Virus record (IMG/VR): IMGVR_UViG_3300030090_005581
Coordinates: 1-45,660 of that record
From: a virus
Strand: one strand, 5' to 3'
Length of the DNA: 45,660 nucleotides
How positions within the stretch are numbered: position 1 is the stretch's first letter; every line of letters begins with the position of its first letter. Below, one piece after another: positions 6,553-43,109 of this stretch. Position numbers and translations under genes: made by a program. The notes under the pieces are model-generated. The model was not told where the DNA came from, ran no database searches, and saw nothing but the letters and a program-made list of their open reading frames with translations.

Positions 6553-9500
6553 CTACACAATAACTTTACTATAGCCGCGGCTTTGATTTATTTCTATTAA
6601 ACCGTCGACCATATCTTTCATTATATCTATATGGGAAATTATCATTACAAAGTCAAACTCTGTTTTTAGGTAGTCAAAAAGCATTGATAGCGAATTAAGA
6701 TTTTCTAAATCTAAATTTCCAAACCCTTCGTCTATTGCAAGGAAGCTAGGTCTTGGAAGATTTGATATTTTTATAAGAGCGACTCTAATTGCTAAAGAAC
6801 TAATAAATTTTTCCATACCACTTGTAAGTTCTAATGGCCATTTGTCGTCATCTCCATATTTTATATTTGTCAATATGTTTTTACCATCAACATCAAACTC
6901 TATTTCGTAGTCAACAATTTGAGAAAGAGTATTGTTTATCTCTTCCTCTAAATAAGGTAATGTTTCTGCAATTATTTCATAAGGTATACCATCTCGTCTT
7001 ATAGCATCTAGATAGTATTCGTATGATTTGAGTTTTAATTCTAGTTCGTGAGCATCTTTAATTGTATTTTCAATATGAGAAATATTTTGTTTTGTTATAG
7101 AAACATTACTATATGCCTTTTGTATTTTTGAAGACAACTCATCTAATTCTAGTTTTATACTTGACTTTTCTATTTCAAGACTTTCAATAATTTTATTTAT
7201 TTTTTCATTTGCCTTTATAGTTTCCTTGTTTTTATAGTATTTTTCTATATCCTTTTCCACGCCTCTTAAATCAGTCTTAAATGCACGTAAGTCGGACTTT
7301 CTCTGTTCTGACTTAATAATAATTTCTGAATTATATTGGCTTATTTGCAGTTTTTCGGCGTTTAATGTATTATATGTGTTAATTAACTTTTCAACCTCTA
7401 TTTTCTCTAATAATATATTATCTGATATGCCTTTGTCGTGTAAAAGTTTTTTAACAATAATTTTATCTTCTTCTAACTCTACTTTAGCTTTGTCTGCAGC
7501 TTTAACAAACTCATTGTTACAACAATATTTACAATTAGGGTCATATTCGTGTGTATCTAATTTAGATATAAGGTCAAGCTTATTTCTTACACTAACCTTT
7601 TTTACTTCTATTTCTCTAACAAGTCTAGAGTTATTTTCTTTTTCAGAATCTAATACAGATTTTTTAGCATTTAATTCATCTATATTTATTTTTGATATTT
7701 TAGAAACAACATCAGACATTTTAACTTTATTGGCTTTTTTATAGTTTTTATATTTTTCTAATTTCTGATTATTAAATTCTATTTCTCGTATACGCCTATG
7801 CTTTCTTGATTCAAGTGCATCAATATCATTTTCTACAGTTATATTTTTAAGCTCTTTTACTTTATTGTGTATTTGCTCTTCTTTCTTAGAATATTTTTTC
7901 TGTATTTGTTTTTTATTATTATTAAGCTCTTTATATATAGCCTCATATTCTAAAAGTTTATCCTCTTCATCTATTAACTGCTGTGAATAATCTGTTTTGC
8001 CAAAATTACGAAGTAATATTTGTACCTCTTTTATCTCTTCATTTGCAAGCTGATATAATTCTTCAAATACAGTTATATCTAAAAACTGAGAAAGTAAATC
8101 TTTCTTTTCAACCTGTGTTTTATCAATGAATCCTGTATTGTTATTTTGAACTGACATTGAAGTTAGAACAAAGTCATTGTATAACCCAAGATAACCTCTT
8201 ATATTTTTATCAGTTTGAGTTCGCTGCTCTCCATTAAGAGATATAGGATTGTCATCTTCACCAATCATCCAAAAATCTACATCAACACGAACATGACCTG
8301 ACTTTTCTTTTTTACCTCTACGTTCTATAAAATAATCTACACCATCTATTTCAAAATTTAATTTAGAATAAAAATTACCTTTTTTATTATTTAACACATC
8401 AGACGCAGATTTTGTTCTAGAACATTTATGAAATATATTAAACATAACTGCATCTAATATTGCAGATTTACCTGCGTGGTTAGGTGCGAATATTCCTATT
8501 ACATCTCTAAGTTTTGAAAAATCTATAATATTGTTTTCACCATAACTAAACATGTTTGAAAACTCAAATGTTTTAGGTTTCCACCTAACACCTCTTGACA
8601 CCTCTATTGTAGAAAGATTTTTATTTAATTCAGTATTTATATTTTTAATTCTTCTTATTGTTTCATCGTCGGCAGGATGGTTTGTACCTATATATTCTTC
8701 CAATAATTCATTTTGATATTGTACATCTCTAATATCTCTTGTTATAGACCTCGTTGTTTTATTTTGAGCATTTAATTTATCATTTTTTATTATAATAATA
8801 TCTTTTGTTTTACATTTGCTTTTTATTTTCTTTATTATATCTTTTAATTGTGCTTGTGTAGTACTTTCTGTTTTTATTCTAACTCTAGGATATTTAGGTA
8901 TACTACTTATATCTGGAAGTATTCCATCTTTTACATCTATTGTATAAAAACCATGTTGGTTTTCAAAGTTAACAAATTCAGCTTTTCTTTTATCTATATC
9001 CCAAATAGCACAACCGTGATTATCAAAAGCTTCACCAAAATTTTGTTGTATTAGTGAACCTACCTGCAATATTGTTTCGTTCTTATTATAAAATTGTCTT
9101 TTATGTATATCACCTAACATTACCATATCGTATCCATCAAACATAGATATTTTAAGGTCATCGCTTTCTACTTTATACCCAGCATCTGTATATGACATAT
9201 CAAGTGCACCGTGAAACAAAGCTACCTTTGTATCAGCATCAAATGATTTTGCACGTATAAAAGTTTCAGGGTCGTCAAATATACTAAATACTACAAAATG
9301 AGTACCAGCAATTTCATGTATAGCAGAATCTTTAAGATAATGTAATTGTGGATGTGCTAAAGAATCCACCATAGGTGAAAGTGAGTCTAACCTTGATGAG
9401 TTATTTAGATTAGCATCGTGATTACCTGTAATTATTATTGTGTGTCTTCTATCTGCTAGATTTTTTAAGAATTCTGTTGTAAGCTTTATTAACTCAGGTG

Positions 9501-9699
9501 ATATATCTGTTTTACTATGTACTATATCTCCACCAACATATACTATAGAATTTTTTGGCAACGCATCTACTTGCTTGTATAATTGTCTAAATACTTTTCT
9601 ATATTCTTTGTGTCTTTGATAGTTTCTAATGTGTATATCTGCAACGTGTAATACTTTTTCTAATTTATCAAATCCTACATCTATTTTGTTAAAGTCCAA
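6553..9699 (-). CDS. Fused Mre11-Rad50 (gp47-gp46 / SbcD-SbcC) recombination nuclease
   Basis: A 1048-residue protein joining both subunits of the DNA-end-processing complex. Residues ~15-200 are a calcineurin-type phosphoesterase with DIH (21-23), GDIVH (57-61), GNHD (92-95), FHG (162-164) and GDIH (196-199), all typical of Mre11. From ~375 a Rad50 ATPase follows: Walker A APNHAGKS (405-412), long coiled coils, a zinc hook CKYC (723-726), ABC signature LTSGME (958-963) and Walker B FLAIDEG (986-992). T4 encodes these parts as separate gp47 and gp46. The start is TTG at 9697-9699, preceded by GGAG and overlapping the primase end by 11 nt; no ATG lies before the first motif. Confidence 0.93.
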   Translation of the reverse strand: MDFNKIDVGFDKLEKVLHVADIHIRNYQRHKEYRKVFRQLYKQVDALPKNSIVYVGGDIVHSKTDISPELIKLTTEFLKNLADRRHTIIITGNHDANLNNSSRLDSLSPMVDSLAHPQLHYLKDSAIHEIAGTHFVVFSIFDDPETFIRAKSFDADTKVALFHGALDMSYTDAGYKVESDDLKISMFDGYDMVMLGDIHKRQFYNKNETILQVGSLIQQNFGEAFDNHGCAIWDIDKRKAEFVNFENQHGFYTIDVKDGILPDISSIPKYPRVRIKTESTTQAQLKDIIKKIKSKCKTKDIIIIKNDKLNAQNKTTRSITRDIRDVQYQNELLEEYIGTNHPADDETIRRIKNINTELNKNLSTIEVSRGVRWKPKTFEFSNMFSYGENNIIDFSKLRDVIGIFAPNHAGKSAILDAVMFNIFHKCSRTKSASDVLNNKKGNFYSKLNFEIDGVDYFIERRGKKEKSGHVRVDVDFWMIGEDDNPISLNGEQRTQTDKNIRGYLGLYNDFVLTSMSVQNNNTGFIDKTQVEKKDLLSQFLDITVFEELYQLANEEIKEVQILLRNFGKTDYSQQLIDEEDKLLEYEAIYKELNNNKKQIQKKYSKKEEQIHNKVKELKNITVENDIDALESRKHRRIREIEFNNQKLEKYKNYKKANKVKMSDVVSKISKINIDELNAKKSVLDSEKENNSRLVREIEVKKVSVRNKLDLISKLDTHEYDPNCKYCCNNEFVKAADKAKVELEEDKIIVKKLLHDKGISDNILLEKIEVEKLINTYNTLNAEKLQISQYNSEIIIKSEQRKSDLRAFKTDLRGVEKDIEKYYKNKETIKANEKINKIIESLEIEKSSIKLELDELSSKIQKAYSNVSITKQNISHIENTIKDAHELELKLKSYEYYLDAIRRDGIPYEIIAETLPYLEEEINNTLSQIVDYEIEFDVDGKNILTNIKYGDDDKWPLELTSGMEKFISSLAIRVALIKISNLPRPSFLAIDEGFGNLDLENLNSLSMLFDYLKTEFDFVMIISHIDIMKDMVDGLIEINQSRGYSKVIV

Positions 9700-26918: not shown

Positions 26919-27332
26919 TTAGAATTTAAGACCGAACCCTAAAGTAAGATTCGTAGTCTTCTCTCCTGAATTGTATACAATTTTTGGGTCAACATACAAG
27001 TTGTTGTTCCACAACGTAAACATTTTACCTACACCATAGCTAATGCCATCAGTGCTTAAACCACTTGTTGCTACATAAGCAAAATATCCATTCATAAAAT
27101 ATCTTGCGTGAAAATCATAATCCATATCGACCGTTGAATCAGCTTGAGCAACCGAAACACCGACCATTAGATTATCCATAACACCGTAACCAACGGTAGG
27201 GCTTACTGCCCATTCTGTCCATGCGATATTTGCAACATCACCAGTACCAACATACCAATCACCTCTTTCCTGTGCTTGTGTAGAAAATACCATAGCAATT
27301 GCTAACATCATTGTTAAAATCAATTTTTTCAT
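26919..27332 (-). CDS. Predicted outer-membrane beta-barrel protein with Bacteroidota-type signal peptide
   Basis: From ATG 27330-27332 (MKKLILTMMLAIAM...) the product is 137 residues. AGAGGAA precedes this ATG; an earlier in-frame ATG would add an implausible Asn-rich leader before the signal peptide. The signal peptide ends STQAQ, the form common in Bacteroidota, with cleavage probably before Gln or Glu. The mature part shows alternating polar/hydrophobic strands with Trp, Tyr and Gly and ends GLKF, the aromatic C-terminus of outer-membrane barrels. About 115 residues suits an 8-strand barrel. A phage-coded barrel might block superinfection or change permeability; this is inference. Confidence 0.75.
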   Translation of the reverse strand: MKKLILTMMLAIAMVFSTQAQERGDWYVGTGDVANIAWTEWAVSPTVGYGVMDNLMVGVSVAQADSTVDMDYDFHARYFMNGYFAYVATSGLSTDGISYGVGKMFTLWNNNLYVDPKIVYNSGEKTTNLTLGFGLKF

Positions 27333-27379
27333 ATTATTTCCTCTTTTTTTATTATTATTGTTATTTGGTATTATTACCA

Positions 27380-28162
27380 TCATCGCGCTCTACTATTGAC
27401 CAAATTATTATAGTCAAAGTATTTTTTTTCAAATTCTTTTTTAATTATATTTACTACCTTAGAAATATCTTGAGTTTTTTCATTTGTCATTTCTCTAATT
27501 AGTACATATAATGCTTTTTTGTTATATTTTTCTATATTGTCTCGTCTTCTAAATAATTCTAATACTGCATAAGCTATTTTCTTATCACACTGCTTTGAAA
27601 ATCTTTTTTCTACCTCATCTTCGTATCTTTCTACAAATAAATCTGTAAAATCTTTTAATGAGTCTCTTCTTTCTCTATGATACTGTTCGTTTGCAATATC
27701 TCTTTGATTATCTACAGCTAATAAACTTGTTTTTTGTTTTAACATTTTATAAGCTTTATTATTTGTCTGTATACAGTAATTTTTTGCAACTATACTAAAA
27801 TAAGAAAATGCTCTTCCTTTTCCTTGTGTATATTTAGGTAGTTTCTGTAGTATAAAAGATATTACTTCATATTGCTTGTCCTCTGTAGCTCCATCCATAT
27901 ACGGGAACTTAAATCTATTTATTATATTCTGAGATAATTTCCATATAGGATAATGTATATGTTCAGAATATATTTTGTTTCTTTTTGAACCACTTTTTTC
28001 TTTATTATATGCAACGATAGCCTTTTCTGTTATAGGAGTGAAGTACATTTTATTTTTTCTCTTTCTACCCCTCCTAACAATATTAGGATTTAACAATTCC
28101 TCTAGTTCTTTTTGATATTTTGGTAAATTTACATAAAACTTATCAACAGGACTAGTCTTCAT
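27380..28162 (-). CDS. Late-transcription sigma factor, gp55-like
   Basis: A 260-residue protein. The central part KGRAFSYFSIVAKNYCIQTNNKAYK (~112-136) matches the sigma region-2 segment that defines T4-type gp55, which directs host RNA polymerase to late promoters. A helical, basic C-terminus follows. gp55 normally recognises TATAAATA with the sliding clamp as activator; here the repeated TGATATTTATATATAA element is the best candidate target. AGGAG lies close to the ATG, and its first bases overlap the end of the membrane-anchored coiled-coil gene. Confidence 0.85.
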   Translation of the reverse strand: MKTSPVDKFYVNLPKYQKELEELLNPNIVRRGRKRKNKMYFTPITEKAIVAYNKEKSGSKRNKIYSEHIHYPIWKLSQNIINRFKFPYMDGATEDKQYEVISFILQKLPKYTQGKGRAFSYFSIVAKNYCIQTNNKAYKMLKQKTSLLAVDNQRDIANEQYHRERRDSLKDFTDLFVERYEDEVEKRFSKQCDKKIAYAVLELFRRRDNIEKYNKKALYVLIREMTNEKTQDISKVVNIIKKEFEKKYFDYNNLVNSRAR

Positions 28163-32435: not shown

Positions 32436-32499
32436 TTGTTTATTTTTTAATCCTCCAACCTCCGAAGCTTTTACGACATGGCTTCTTTTCACCGTTGGG

Positions 32500-32681
32500 T
32501 CAAGGTGCTTAATTAAGCAGCCATCGCCATTTCAACTTGTTCGCCAGTTAATTGCGTTTGAACTTCCTCATATCCTTATCTCTCTGTCAAATCCAGTCAG
32601 CCCCATATTGTCAATAAAATTTAGTGGAGCTGGTGGGTTTCGAACCCACGTCCAAAAGAGTAGCTAATATAAGTAATAGCG
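32500..32681 (-). ncRNA. ssrA: Circularly permuted (two-piece type) tmRNA
   Basis: In transcription order: CUUAUAUUAGCUACUCUUUU (32654-32673, P2 3' strand), a T arm GUGGG-UUCGAAA-CCCAC (32633-32649), acceptor 3' strand CAGCUCC (32626-32632) plus discriminator A, a ~20-nt spacer, acceptor 5' strand GGGGCUG (32598-32604), the conserved CUGGAUUUGACAG, then the tag frame. The acceptor forms 7 bp including G3-U70, the alanine identity pair. P2 can form: AGAGAG with CUCUUU and AUAUGAG with CUUAUAU. The order is reversed relative to one-piece tmRNA and matches permuted genes processed into acceptor and coding pieces. CCA is not encoded (CTA instead). The outer ends are approximate. The RNA would rescue stalled ribosomes with SmpB. 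Confidence 0.9.
32513..32548 (-). other. tmRNA proteolysis-tag reading frame
   Basis: The minimal frame encodes TGEQVEMAMAA followed by TAA (32513-32515). The hydrophobic ...AMAA end matches the ALAA/LAA degradation signals read by ClpXP-type proteases. The stop codon lies inside a perfect 12-nt palindrome, GCTTAATTAAGC (32507-32518), as expected for the hairpin that carries the tag stop in other tmRNAs. The frame is open further upstream (TQL before TGE), so the resume codon is not certain; an A at position -4 favours the ACT codon at 32546-32548. Confidence 0.7.
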
Positions 32682-32682
32682 T

Positions 32683-32702
32683 TCAAATATAAATATCATA
32701 TA
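32683..32702 (-). promoter_or_regulatory. Candidate tmRNA promoter, late-type element
   Basis: The minus strand reads ATGATATTTATATTTGAACG right before the tmRNA acceptor piece. It holds both the family string TGATATTTATAT and TATATTTG, which fits the Bacteroidota -7 consensus TAnnTTTG, so either a phage or a host sigma could read it. Confidence 0.5.
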
Positions 32703-37978: not shown

Positions 37979-38320
37979 TTAATCGTAAAACTCTATACCA
38001 TTACCACCTATCCATTTTTTATGTTCATCACTAACCTGCCATTTATATTTAGTAATATACCAAATCTCATCAGCCTGCCATTTGTACTTAACAAAGAAAA
38101 CTTTGTACTCCGCTTCCCACTTATATTTACACCAATATACTACATTGGCACTTAAGCTAGACTTCTGACTACTATAATATTTAAGATAAGTAGCTTGAGA
38201 TTTAGTTGAGGTAATATAAACAAGAATATCAGCATCCCATTTATGTTTAGTTTCAAAACAAGTTTGACCATTAGACAGAAATGGAGATATAGCTAGTAGT
38301 AATGTAATTATTCTAATCAT
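37979..38320 (-). CDS. Exported KYKW-repeat protein (DUF6150-like)
   Basis: From ATG 38318-38320 (MIRIITLLLAISPFLSNGQ) the product is 113 residues. A signal peptide ends LSNGQ, the Bacteroidota style. The mature part contains about four imperfect repeats with KHKWDAD, KYKWEAE, KYKWQAD and KYKWQVS, spaced 13-18 residues, with alternating beta character. This matches what I know of DUF6150, found in Bacteroidota proteins of unknown function. The start overlaps the stop of the upstream membrane-protein gene. A periplasmic or surface location is inferred. Confidence 0.7.
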   Translation of the reverse strand: MIRIITLLLAISPFLSNGQTCFETKHKWDADILVYITSTKSQATYLKYYSSQKSSLSANVVYWCKYKWEAEYKVFFVKYKWQADEIWYITKYKWQVSDEHKKWIGGNGIEFYD

Positions 38321-38525
38321 CTTTTTCACTGTTAATAAAAGCAATAATAAAACTATATAAAAATATCAGGAATCCTATAGGCCATATAAGAATACTAATT
38401 ATTTTGTCATAATCATCTAGACTGTGTTTCTTTTCAACTATAAACTTTCTGTCTATAAAATCATACATGACTTGAAAACAAGCACCTATAAAAAGATATA
38501 GTGATATATAATAAAGCAACGTCAT
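38313..38525 (-). CDS. Small two-helix membrane protein
   Basis: A 70-residue protein with membrane segments at ~4-22 and ~45-65 and an acidic C-terminus (NSEKDD). The start overlaps the stop of the gene before it as ATGA. The function is unknown. Confidence 0.6.
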   Translation of the reverse strand: MTLLYYISLYLFIGACFQVMYDFIDRKFIVEKKHSLDDYDKIISILIWPIGFLIFLYSFIIAFINSEKDD

Positions 38526-42593: not shown

Positions 42594-43109
42594 TTAACTA
42601 ATTGGGTCAGGTTTAAGGTTAATCATATCTTGACTTTCAAATCCATAATCCCATAAGATTTCTTCGTCTTTATCTATATCTTTACATGCTGTACCAACCA
42701 TCAATCTTTTTGCTTTGTTCAATGACCATTTCAGATTTGGTTTTAATGGTATATTTCCATCACCTATTCCTTGCCAACTACTGCAATTAACAACACAAGC
42801 TTTACCTAAAGGTATAAAGTCTTCTTCATATGAATCTTCACCTGGTTCTCGCCAAGCGAACTTGTATCCTCTCATCTGATACGTGTTTTTCACAAACAAT
42901 TCATAAGGTATCACACATTCCATGATTACCTCACCGTCTTTAATCTGTTCATCGGCGAATACTCCATATCCATCCAATTCACTCTCTTTAACATAACATC
43001 TATCTATTAACTTACTCATATCTGTTCTCCTTTTATACGGACAATTCTTACAACCATTATTACAACAAAAACCTCTTTTTAATAAAAATTCTCTGCTTAA
43101 AGGTTTCAT
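42594..43109 (-). CDS. SET-domain protein with N-terminal Cys cluster
   Basis: A 171-residue protein. Residues ~8-26 (FLLKRGFCCNNGCKNCPYKR, Cys15, Cys16, Cys20, Cys23) match the CCxxGCxxCPY signature of the bacterial DUF5522 family, usually a stand-alone protein. From ~37 a SET domain follows: GYGVFADEQIKDGEVI (47-62), the NCS (108-110) where NHS is usual, and EILWDYG (150-156). SET proteins transfer methyl groups from SAM to protein lysines. An internal Met31 could serve as a second start giving the SET domain alone. The target is unknown. Confidence 0.75.
   Translation of the reverse strand: MKPLSREFLLKRGFCCNNGCKNCPYKRRTDMSKLIDRCYVKESELDGYGVFADEQIKDGEVIMECVIPYELFVKNTYQMRGYKFAWREPGEDSYEEDFIPLGKACVVNCSSWQGIGDGNIPLKPNLKWSLNKAKRLMVGTACKDIDKDEEILWDYGFESQDMINLKPDPIS

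Follow-up and report, generated by a model that had tools for sequence, protein, structure and literature searches.

The steps through which a two-piece tmRNA passes, namely processing, charging, association with SmpB and tagging, are well known. The literature to which we had access, which did not extend to supplementary tables or subscription papers, recognises three main two-piece clades and contains no Bacteroidota-type lineage. RF04321, the Rfam model for permuted tmRNA (tmRNA_permuted), has a seed of alphaproteobacterial, betaproteobacterial and cyanobacterial sequences only (PMC11915505). Two-piece tmRNAs on phages are already on record: in those parts of one source that were available, 53 of 133 phage tmRNA structures were called two-piece, 50 marine or aquatic, and the same parts do not describe a Bacteroidota-type two-piece lineage (PMC9004378). 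The Methylophilales phage Melnitz, as presented there, resembles the phage studied here in being a marine myophage with a permuted tmRNA, but its tmRNA is of the alphaproteobacterial type and is accompanied by a glutamine riboswitch (PMC9004378). What appears to be new in the present case is the Bacteroidota-type lineage rather than the presence of a two-piece tmRNA on a phage. Another close counterpart is the one-piece tmRNA of Bacteroidia (tags GENNYALAA, GESNYAMAA and similar), which shares a near-identical TLD and P2 and a Gly-Glu tag start with the phage gene, but is unpermuted, its gene beginning with the acceptor 5′ strand and reaching the T arm only after about 350 nt.

The stretch of DNA analysed (the window) is a linear fragment of 45,660 bases with 32% G+C from an IMG/VR virus record. 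Its baseplate, tail-fibre, SbcCD-like and primase genes indicate a large tailed phage, and we regard it as a large myophage for which Bacteroidota is the most likely host group. The minus strand of the window encodes a circularly permuted tmRNA from 32685 to 32450. RF04321 matched 32674-32513 on the minus strand with 68.5 bits (E 3e-11 for the whole window) against a curated cut-off of 47 bits, and ARAGORN called a permuted tmRNA at 32716-32422 with the tag GEQVEMAMAA. Both results confirm a first-pass annotation of the sequence, which had proposed a permuted tmRNA on a phage and had named an Rfam model search as a check. That annotation had placed the gene at 32500-32681; the locus was correct and the extent too short, since a 5′ segment begins at about 32685 and a 3′ pseudoknot reaches down to 32464. 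The order that characterises RF04321 is met, with the acceptor 3′ half and T arm first, an intervening sequence next, and the acceptor 5′ half and tag last. The one-piece order is not, the arrangement in the window being reversed, and the one-piece model RF00023 gave no match above its cut-off anywhere in the window. The best full-length match of the clan at the locus was RF01850 (betaproteobacterial two-piece tmRNA) rather than RF01849 (alphaproteobacterial) or RF01851 (cyanobacterial), and it reached only 44.8 bits, covering the TLD alone, against a cut-off of 84 bits. The gene thus resembles RF04321 in gene order, TLD, G3-U70, a tag frame in the second half and a score above cut-off, but departs from it in the D loop, the start of the tag and the 3′ pseudoknot, and in sequence type its TLD and P2 satisfy what defines the Bacteroidia one-piece genes.

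The acceptor piece, which is the 3′ half of the molecule, is encoded first (32625..32685, minus strand, as are all features below). It is supported by RF04321, ARAGORN and covariation, its ends being inferred, and consists of a 5′ segment complementary to part of the coding piece, the T arm, the acceptor 3′ strand and the discriminator A at 32625, which was read directly. The T arm, GUGGG-UUCGAAA-CCCAC (32633..32649), is 100% paired in 40 sequences and includes two double-change pairs, and the acceptor 3′ strand CAGCUCC (32626..32632) forms 7 bp with 32604-32598. An intervening sequence of 20 nt (32605..32624), also read directly, follows and is expected to be removed; CCA is not encoded. Direct reading thus bears out the first-pass description of a T arm and CAGCUCC encoded about 20 nt ahead of GGGGCUG, the D-loop analogue and the tag. 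Among relatives the intervening sequence differs in both sequence and length, and in one case (L091 / L010, genome G005) an imperfect duplication, ACTATATTCATTTAGATATAATA ... ACTATATTCATTAGGATATAATA, has made it longer.

The coding piece, the 5′ half, is encoded second (32450..32604, 3′ end inferred) and carries the acceptor 5′ strand, D loop, P2 strands, tag, stop-codon hairpin and pseudoknot. The acceptor 5′ strand GGGGCUG (32604-32598) and the D-loop analogue ACUGGAUUUGAC together occupy 32586..32604; read on the minus strand the analogue is CUGGAUUUGAC. The tag reading frame assigned by ARAGORN, GEQVEMAMAA followed by the stop UAA, lies at 32513..32545. Its resume codon, GGC, is held in the loop of a hairpin, AACU-GGCGAACA-AGUU (32534..32549), whose 4 bp are 99.4% paired and whose stem AACU/AGUU is replaced by AACA/UGUU in four sequences. 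A second hairpin, UGCUUAAUUAAGCA (32506..32519), contains the stop codon, and one of its pairs alternates among U-A, C-G and G-C. Downstream, an H-type pseudoknot (32464..32494) is formed by CGGU/GUCG with GAAGC/GCUUC, the second stem covarying as GAAGC/GCUUC, GAGGU/ACCUC, GGGAC/GUCCC and GAGAC/GUCUC. P2, which had been described at first pass as a helix of two segments, was found to have three: CUCUU..UG with CA.GAGAG, CUUAUAU with AUAUGAG, and UGAAC with GUUCA.

The fold was examined in an alignment of 40 distinct core sequences, most of them obtained by a pattern scan of IMG/VR. RNAalifold, supplied with no structure, recovered the acceptor, the T stem and two P2 helices between the pieces. 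When the structure described above was imposed, 95.3% of cells were paired, and this figure fell to 38.7-47.1% once the 3′ partners were displaced by 1-3 columns, which places the fold far above chance. Double-sided changes were seen in 22 pairs (shuffled mean 14.8; none of 500 shuffles as high) and in 192 cells (shuffled mean 54.9), so that the pairing is both conserved and covarying in relatives, the absence of which would have counted against the original proposal. The 7-bp acceptor with G3-U70, also part of that proposal, is present in all 40 relatives. Co-folding of the two window pieces, another check put forward at first pass, gave the acceptor, T and P2 helices at −45.7 kcal/mol, and cognate pieces outbound swapped pieces in 315 of 410 tests.

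All 41 core tags are variants of G-E-Q-V-E-M-A-M-A-A. The AMAA end is invariant (41/41) while the alanine codons differ at their third positions, and the Ala-Ala tag end expected under RF04321 is accordingly present throughout. For several core members the printed frames begin before the resume codon is reached; the frame of 10 residues is that given by ARAGORN. A first-position glycine is common to the core phage genes and to most of the Bacteroidia examined. Much longer tags, of about 37 residues (e.g. GKQVNTTIASIFASLSAIRSLSQETIVAKEQVFAMAA), occur in the relatives L237, L238, L265, L300, L305 and L306 and retain the AMAA end. A divergent permuted tmRNA with the short tag GNFLQKAA, for which ARAGORN made no call, lies at 4916-5121 of L005, a phage with a tRNA cluster.

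The permuted gene is not unique to the window phage but belongs to a widespread phage lineage, with dozens of carriers among related marine phages and others among the crAss-like phages of the human gut. Close relatives as judged by gp6 (71-78% identity) have it, and gp6 of the window is encoded on 37 of 50 contigs chosen for the permuted gene. More distant members of the window's phage group have a one-piece tmRNA. A gp6 tree (quick method, midpoint root) requires only two changes between permuted and one-piece carriers, so that the permuted form has long been present in the group. Most of the core relatives came from the IMG/VR scan, which required TTTGAC, so the uniformity of their D loops is partly a product of selection. 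The scan also returned false positives, four of them unrelated (L246, L249, L285, L295) and two, L283 and L300, in which a tRNA arm precedes the D arm of a tmRNA, and "about sixty" is therefore a safer count than 96. Outside the core, the permuted order was found in Chryseobacterium phage MA9V-3, isolated on Chryseobacterium (64.7 bits), and, according to ARAGORN and for some of them also Rfam, in several crAss-like phages, among them cr60_1, cr52_1 and cr114_1; a search of related phages for the same order had been among the checks proposed. The records of MA9V-3 and the crAss-like phages say at most "transfer-messenger RNA, SsrA", without stating the permutation, and the paper on MA9V-3 does not mention it.

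The 3′ motif ACGG...CGUNAAA, which corresponds to the pseudoknot, is present at 40 of 41 core, 7 of 7 long-tag and 8 of 8 crAss loci, and thereby links the crAss type to that of the window. All 29 Bacteroidota one-piece genes and both controls are without the motif, and it is likewise missing from MA9V-3, the G282 prophage described below, L293/L307 and some other phage genes. In the crAss-like phages L441-L447, the permuted tmRNA is preceded at short distance by RAGATH-9 or RAGATH-20 RNAs. The intervening sequence of one crAss permuted gene, in L445 (cr114_1), contains a tRNA-His (471-543), and that of two others, L442 and L443 (cr113_1 and cr56_1, 431-1012), holds most of an endonuclease gene on the opposite strand.

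Just upstream of the tmRNA lies a promoter-like element, GATATTTATAT (32687..32697), whose promoter function is inferred. The coding strand has four copies of it, each lying between genes (p 2.5e-5; minus-strand positions 1303, 6547, 26550 and 32697), and TATTTATA is intergenic in 10 of its 12 copies (p 1.7e-10), intergenic DNA making up 7% of the window. In 26 of 41 core relatives the element is positioned 51 ± 1 nt before TTCGA. GATATTTATAT is likely a late-promoter element of the window's phage group, and expression of the tmRNA was read as late on the grounds that related copies of GATATTTATA precede structural genes. The Bacteroidota promoter pair TTTG/TAnnTTTG was absent from the intergenic regions of the window.

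From these features a course of events may be proposed. Transcription would start just after GATATTTATA, assuming that the inferred promoter is used, probably late, and would yield one precursor. Host RNase P is predicted to cleave before G32604, and the acceptor piece would be completed after A32625 by 3′ processing and addition of CCA, the two pieces being held together by the acceptor stem and the three-segment P2 helix. Host alanyl-tRNA synthetase (AlaRS) could then charge the RNA through G3-U70, and host SmpB could deliver it to stalled ribosomes, where the tag GEQVEMAMAA would be added. Each of the processing, charging, SmpB and tagging steps is established for two-piece tmRNA (PMC11915505); for the present RNA all are inferred. 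The presumed benefit to the phage is that trans-translation would be kept running during infection, beside the host one-piece tmRNA or in its place, and control of ribosome rescue or tagging by the phage, as the first-pass annotation had suggested, remains an inference. The RNA might instead act as a decoy or modulator that diverts SmpB, AlaRS or RNase P from the host tmRNA. The TLD-only tmRNA of mycobacteriophage DS6A does inhibit host tmRNA (PMC11915505), and SmpB was found in none of the phage records searched. A decoy, however, needs none of the conserved tag end, resume-codon hairpin, stop hairpin and 3′ pseudoknot, and we consider this role unlikely.

Evidence on the host comes largely from relatives of the phage and from Bacteroidota genomes. 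More than 120 genome contigs contain the D-arm pattern GGGGCTGA-N-GGATTTGACAG, and the matches listed come almost entirely from Bacteroidota. The one-piece model scored above its cut-off in 29 of 30 Bacteroidota genomes and the permuted model in one of 395, G282, which agrees with the earlier statement that Bacteroidota carry the one-piece form, the sole permuted copy being borne by a prophage. That copy adjoins tRNAs and is part of a prophage, recognisable by genes for integrase, DNA polymerase, primase and RIIA, on a chromosome contig that also holds SusC/SusD genes. G282, which belongs to the same order as the Flavobacteriales genome G039, encodes a one-piece tmRNA of its own (160 bits) as well as SmpB. 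The genome sequence thus shows that a permuted copy in a prophage can stand beside the one-piece tmRNA of the host.

For the window itself a Bacteroidota host is only inferred, while its relatives do point to this phylum, as had been suspected. Bacteroides intestinalis has served as the culture host of a crAss phage (PMC6235969). The nearest isolates, Flavobacterium phage immuto and Mel-JY01 (reported from Microcystis), are both without a tmRNA; the first fits a Bacteroidota host and the second does not. On the gp6 tree immuto is nested, on a long branch, among carriers of the permuted gene. The ribosome-binding sites of the window are mixed and do not decide the matter, and a scan of genome contigs with its outer-membrane-like protein (26919-27383) identified no relatives.

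The permutation could have arisen in a Bacteroidota bacterium that has yet to be sampled and have been picked up by phages later. The genome samples, 395 phylum-wide, 398 from Flavobacteriales and 395 class-wide, overlap, were searched with Infernal's stricter filters and cover only part of Bacteroidota diversity, which leaves room for such a bacterium. Against it, the prophage-borne gene of G282 is the only permuted copy in these samples, the lineage model R1 revealing no further one in the 398 Flavobacteriales-order and 395 class-wide genomes. The permuted-model host matches below cut-off (31 of 32) and the R1 matches were one-piece wherever ARAGORN called them, a few being uncalled. A bacterial source of this kind seems quite unlikely.

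The remaining question is from which gene the permuted form was derived. A 30-nt segment of T arm and acceptor, GGACGTGGGTTCGAAACCCACCAGCTCCAC, is identical in the window and in a one-piece Flavobacteriales tmRNA (L369), and when the T arm, the D arm and the neighbouring part of P2 are compared, the closest match for 37 of 41 core genes is a Bacteroidia one-piece gene, although this TLD comparison spans only 66 nt and is weak phylogenetic evidence. The D loop GGATTTGACAG (UUUGAC) is of the Bacteroidia type, whereas permuted Rfam models have UGGUUUCGAC (consensus UUCGAC). We consider it probable that the window represents a Bacteroidota-infecting myophage with a functional permuted ssrA, and that this gene belongs to a phage-borne lineage in which a Bacteroidia-type one-piece gene was permuted independently of the alphaproteobacterial, betaproteobacterial and cyanobacterial forms. 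Gene order, fold, covariation, conservation of the tag and affinity of the lineage are demonstrated by sequence. The first-pass annotation had left open an independent permutation or a transfer across phyla, and the L369 identity and the 37 of 41 nearest Bacteroidia genes favour the former.

Under a transfer, a permuted tmRNA taken from an alphaproteobacterium, betaproteobacterium or cyanobacterium, or from their phages, would later have drifted towards Bacteroidota features. RF04321, built from these three groups, does match the locus, and alphaproteobacterial-type two-piece tmRNAs are known on marine phages. The D loop, P2, T arm and Gly-first tag are nonetheless all of the Bacteroidia type, which makes permutation of a Bacteroidia-type gene the likelier event; the cyanophage control has the UGGUUUCGAC D loop (UUCGAC) and an ANNIV-type tag in frame, and the full betaproteobacterial model fell short of its cut-off. 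On these grounds a donor from another phylum was judged less likely and is, in our estimate, very improbable. That the locus is a degenerate relic, or resembles a tmRNA by chance through a tRNA-like element, could be entertained only for want of expression evidence and can be dismissed, since compensatory changes throughout rule it out and the tag is conserved and the distribution wide.

The preferred reading, an independent permutation of a Bacteroidia-type gene, looks like a separate and so far undescribed virus-borne origin of the two-piece form. Whether it happened once is less clear. A single permutation inside a Bacteroidota phage, followed by spread to marine myophages, to the crAss-like phages of the gut and to temperate phages, is a reading that stays possible and on which we are evenly divided. 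Infected cells would then contain two tmRNA architectures at once, and the lineage-specific parts would be the hairpin-held resume codon, the 3′ pseudoknot and tags of up to about 37 residues, as well as intervening sequences housing a tRNA or homing endonuclease. The R1 scores of MA9V-3, the G282 prophage and other genes without the 3′ motif (55-89 bits) come near those of the betaproteobacterial and cyanobacterial controls (53.6 and 55.9), from which the model fails to set several of them apart. With the motif missing as well, more than one permutation is possible, and a single origin is unproven.

A lineage of this kind, borne by phages while the bacteria of the phylum they belong to retain one-piece tmRNA, offers a natural experiment on how an RNA gene becomes split, and it bears on why phages carry a ribosome-rescue RNA at all. 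The cultured relative MA9V-3, whose tmRNA gene is permuted as well, makes the lineage testable at the bench, and annotations in which these genes are labelled as plain tmRNA or missed can be corrected.

Three other genes of the window were noted in passing. SbcD-like and SbcC-like subunits are fused in one protein of 1048 aa (6553-9699), a signal-peptide protein contains DUF6150 (37979-38344), and a further phage protein combines a SET domain with a DUF5522 stretch (42594-43109).
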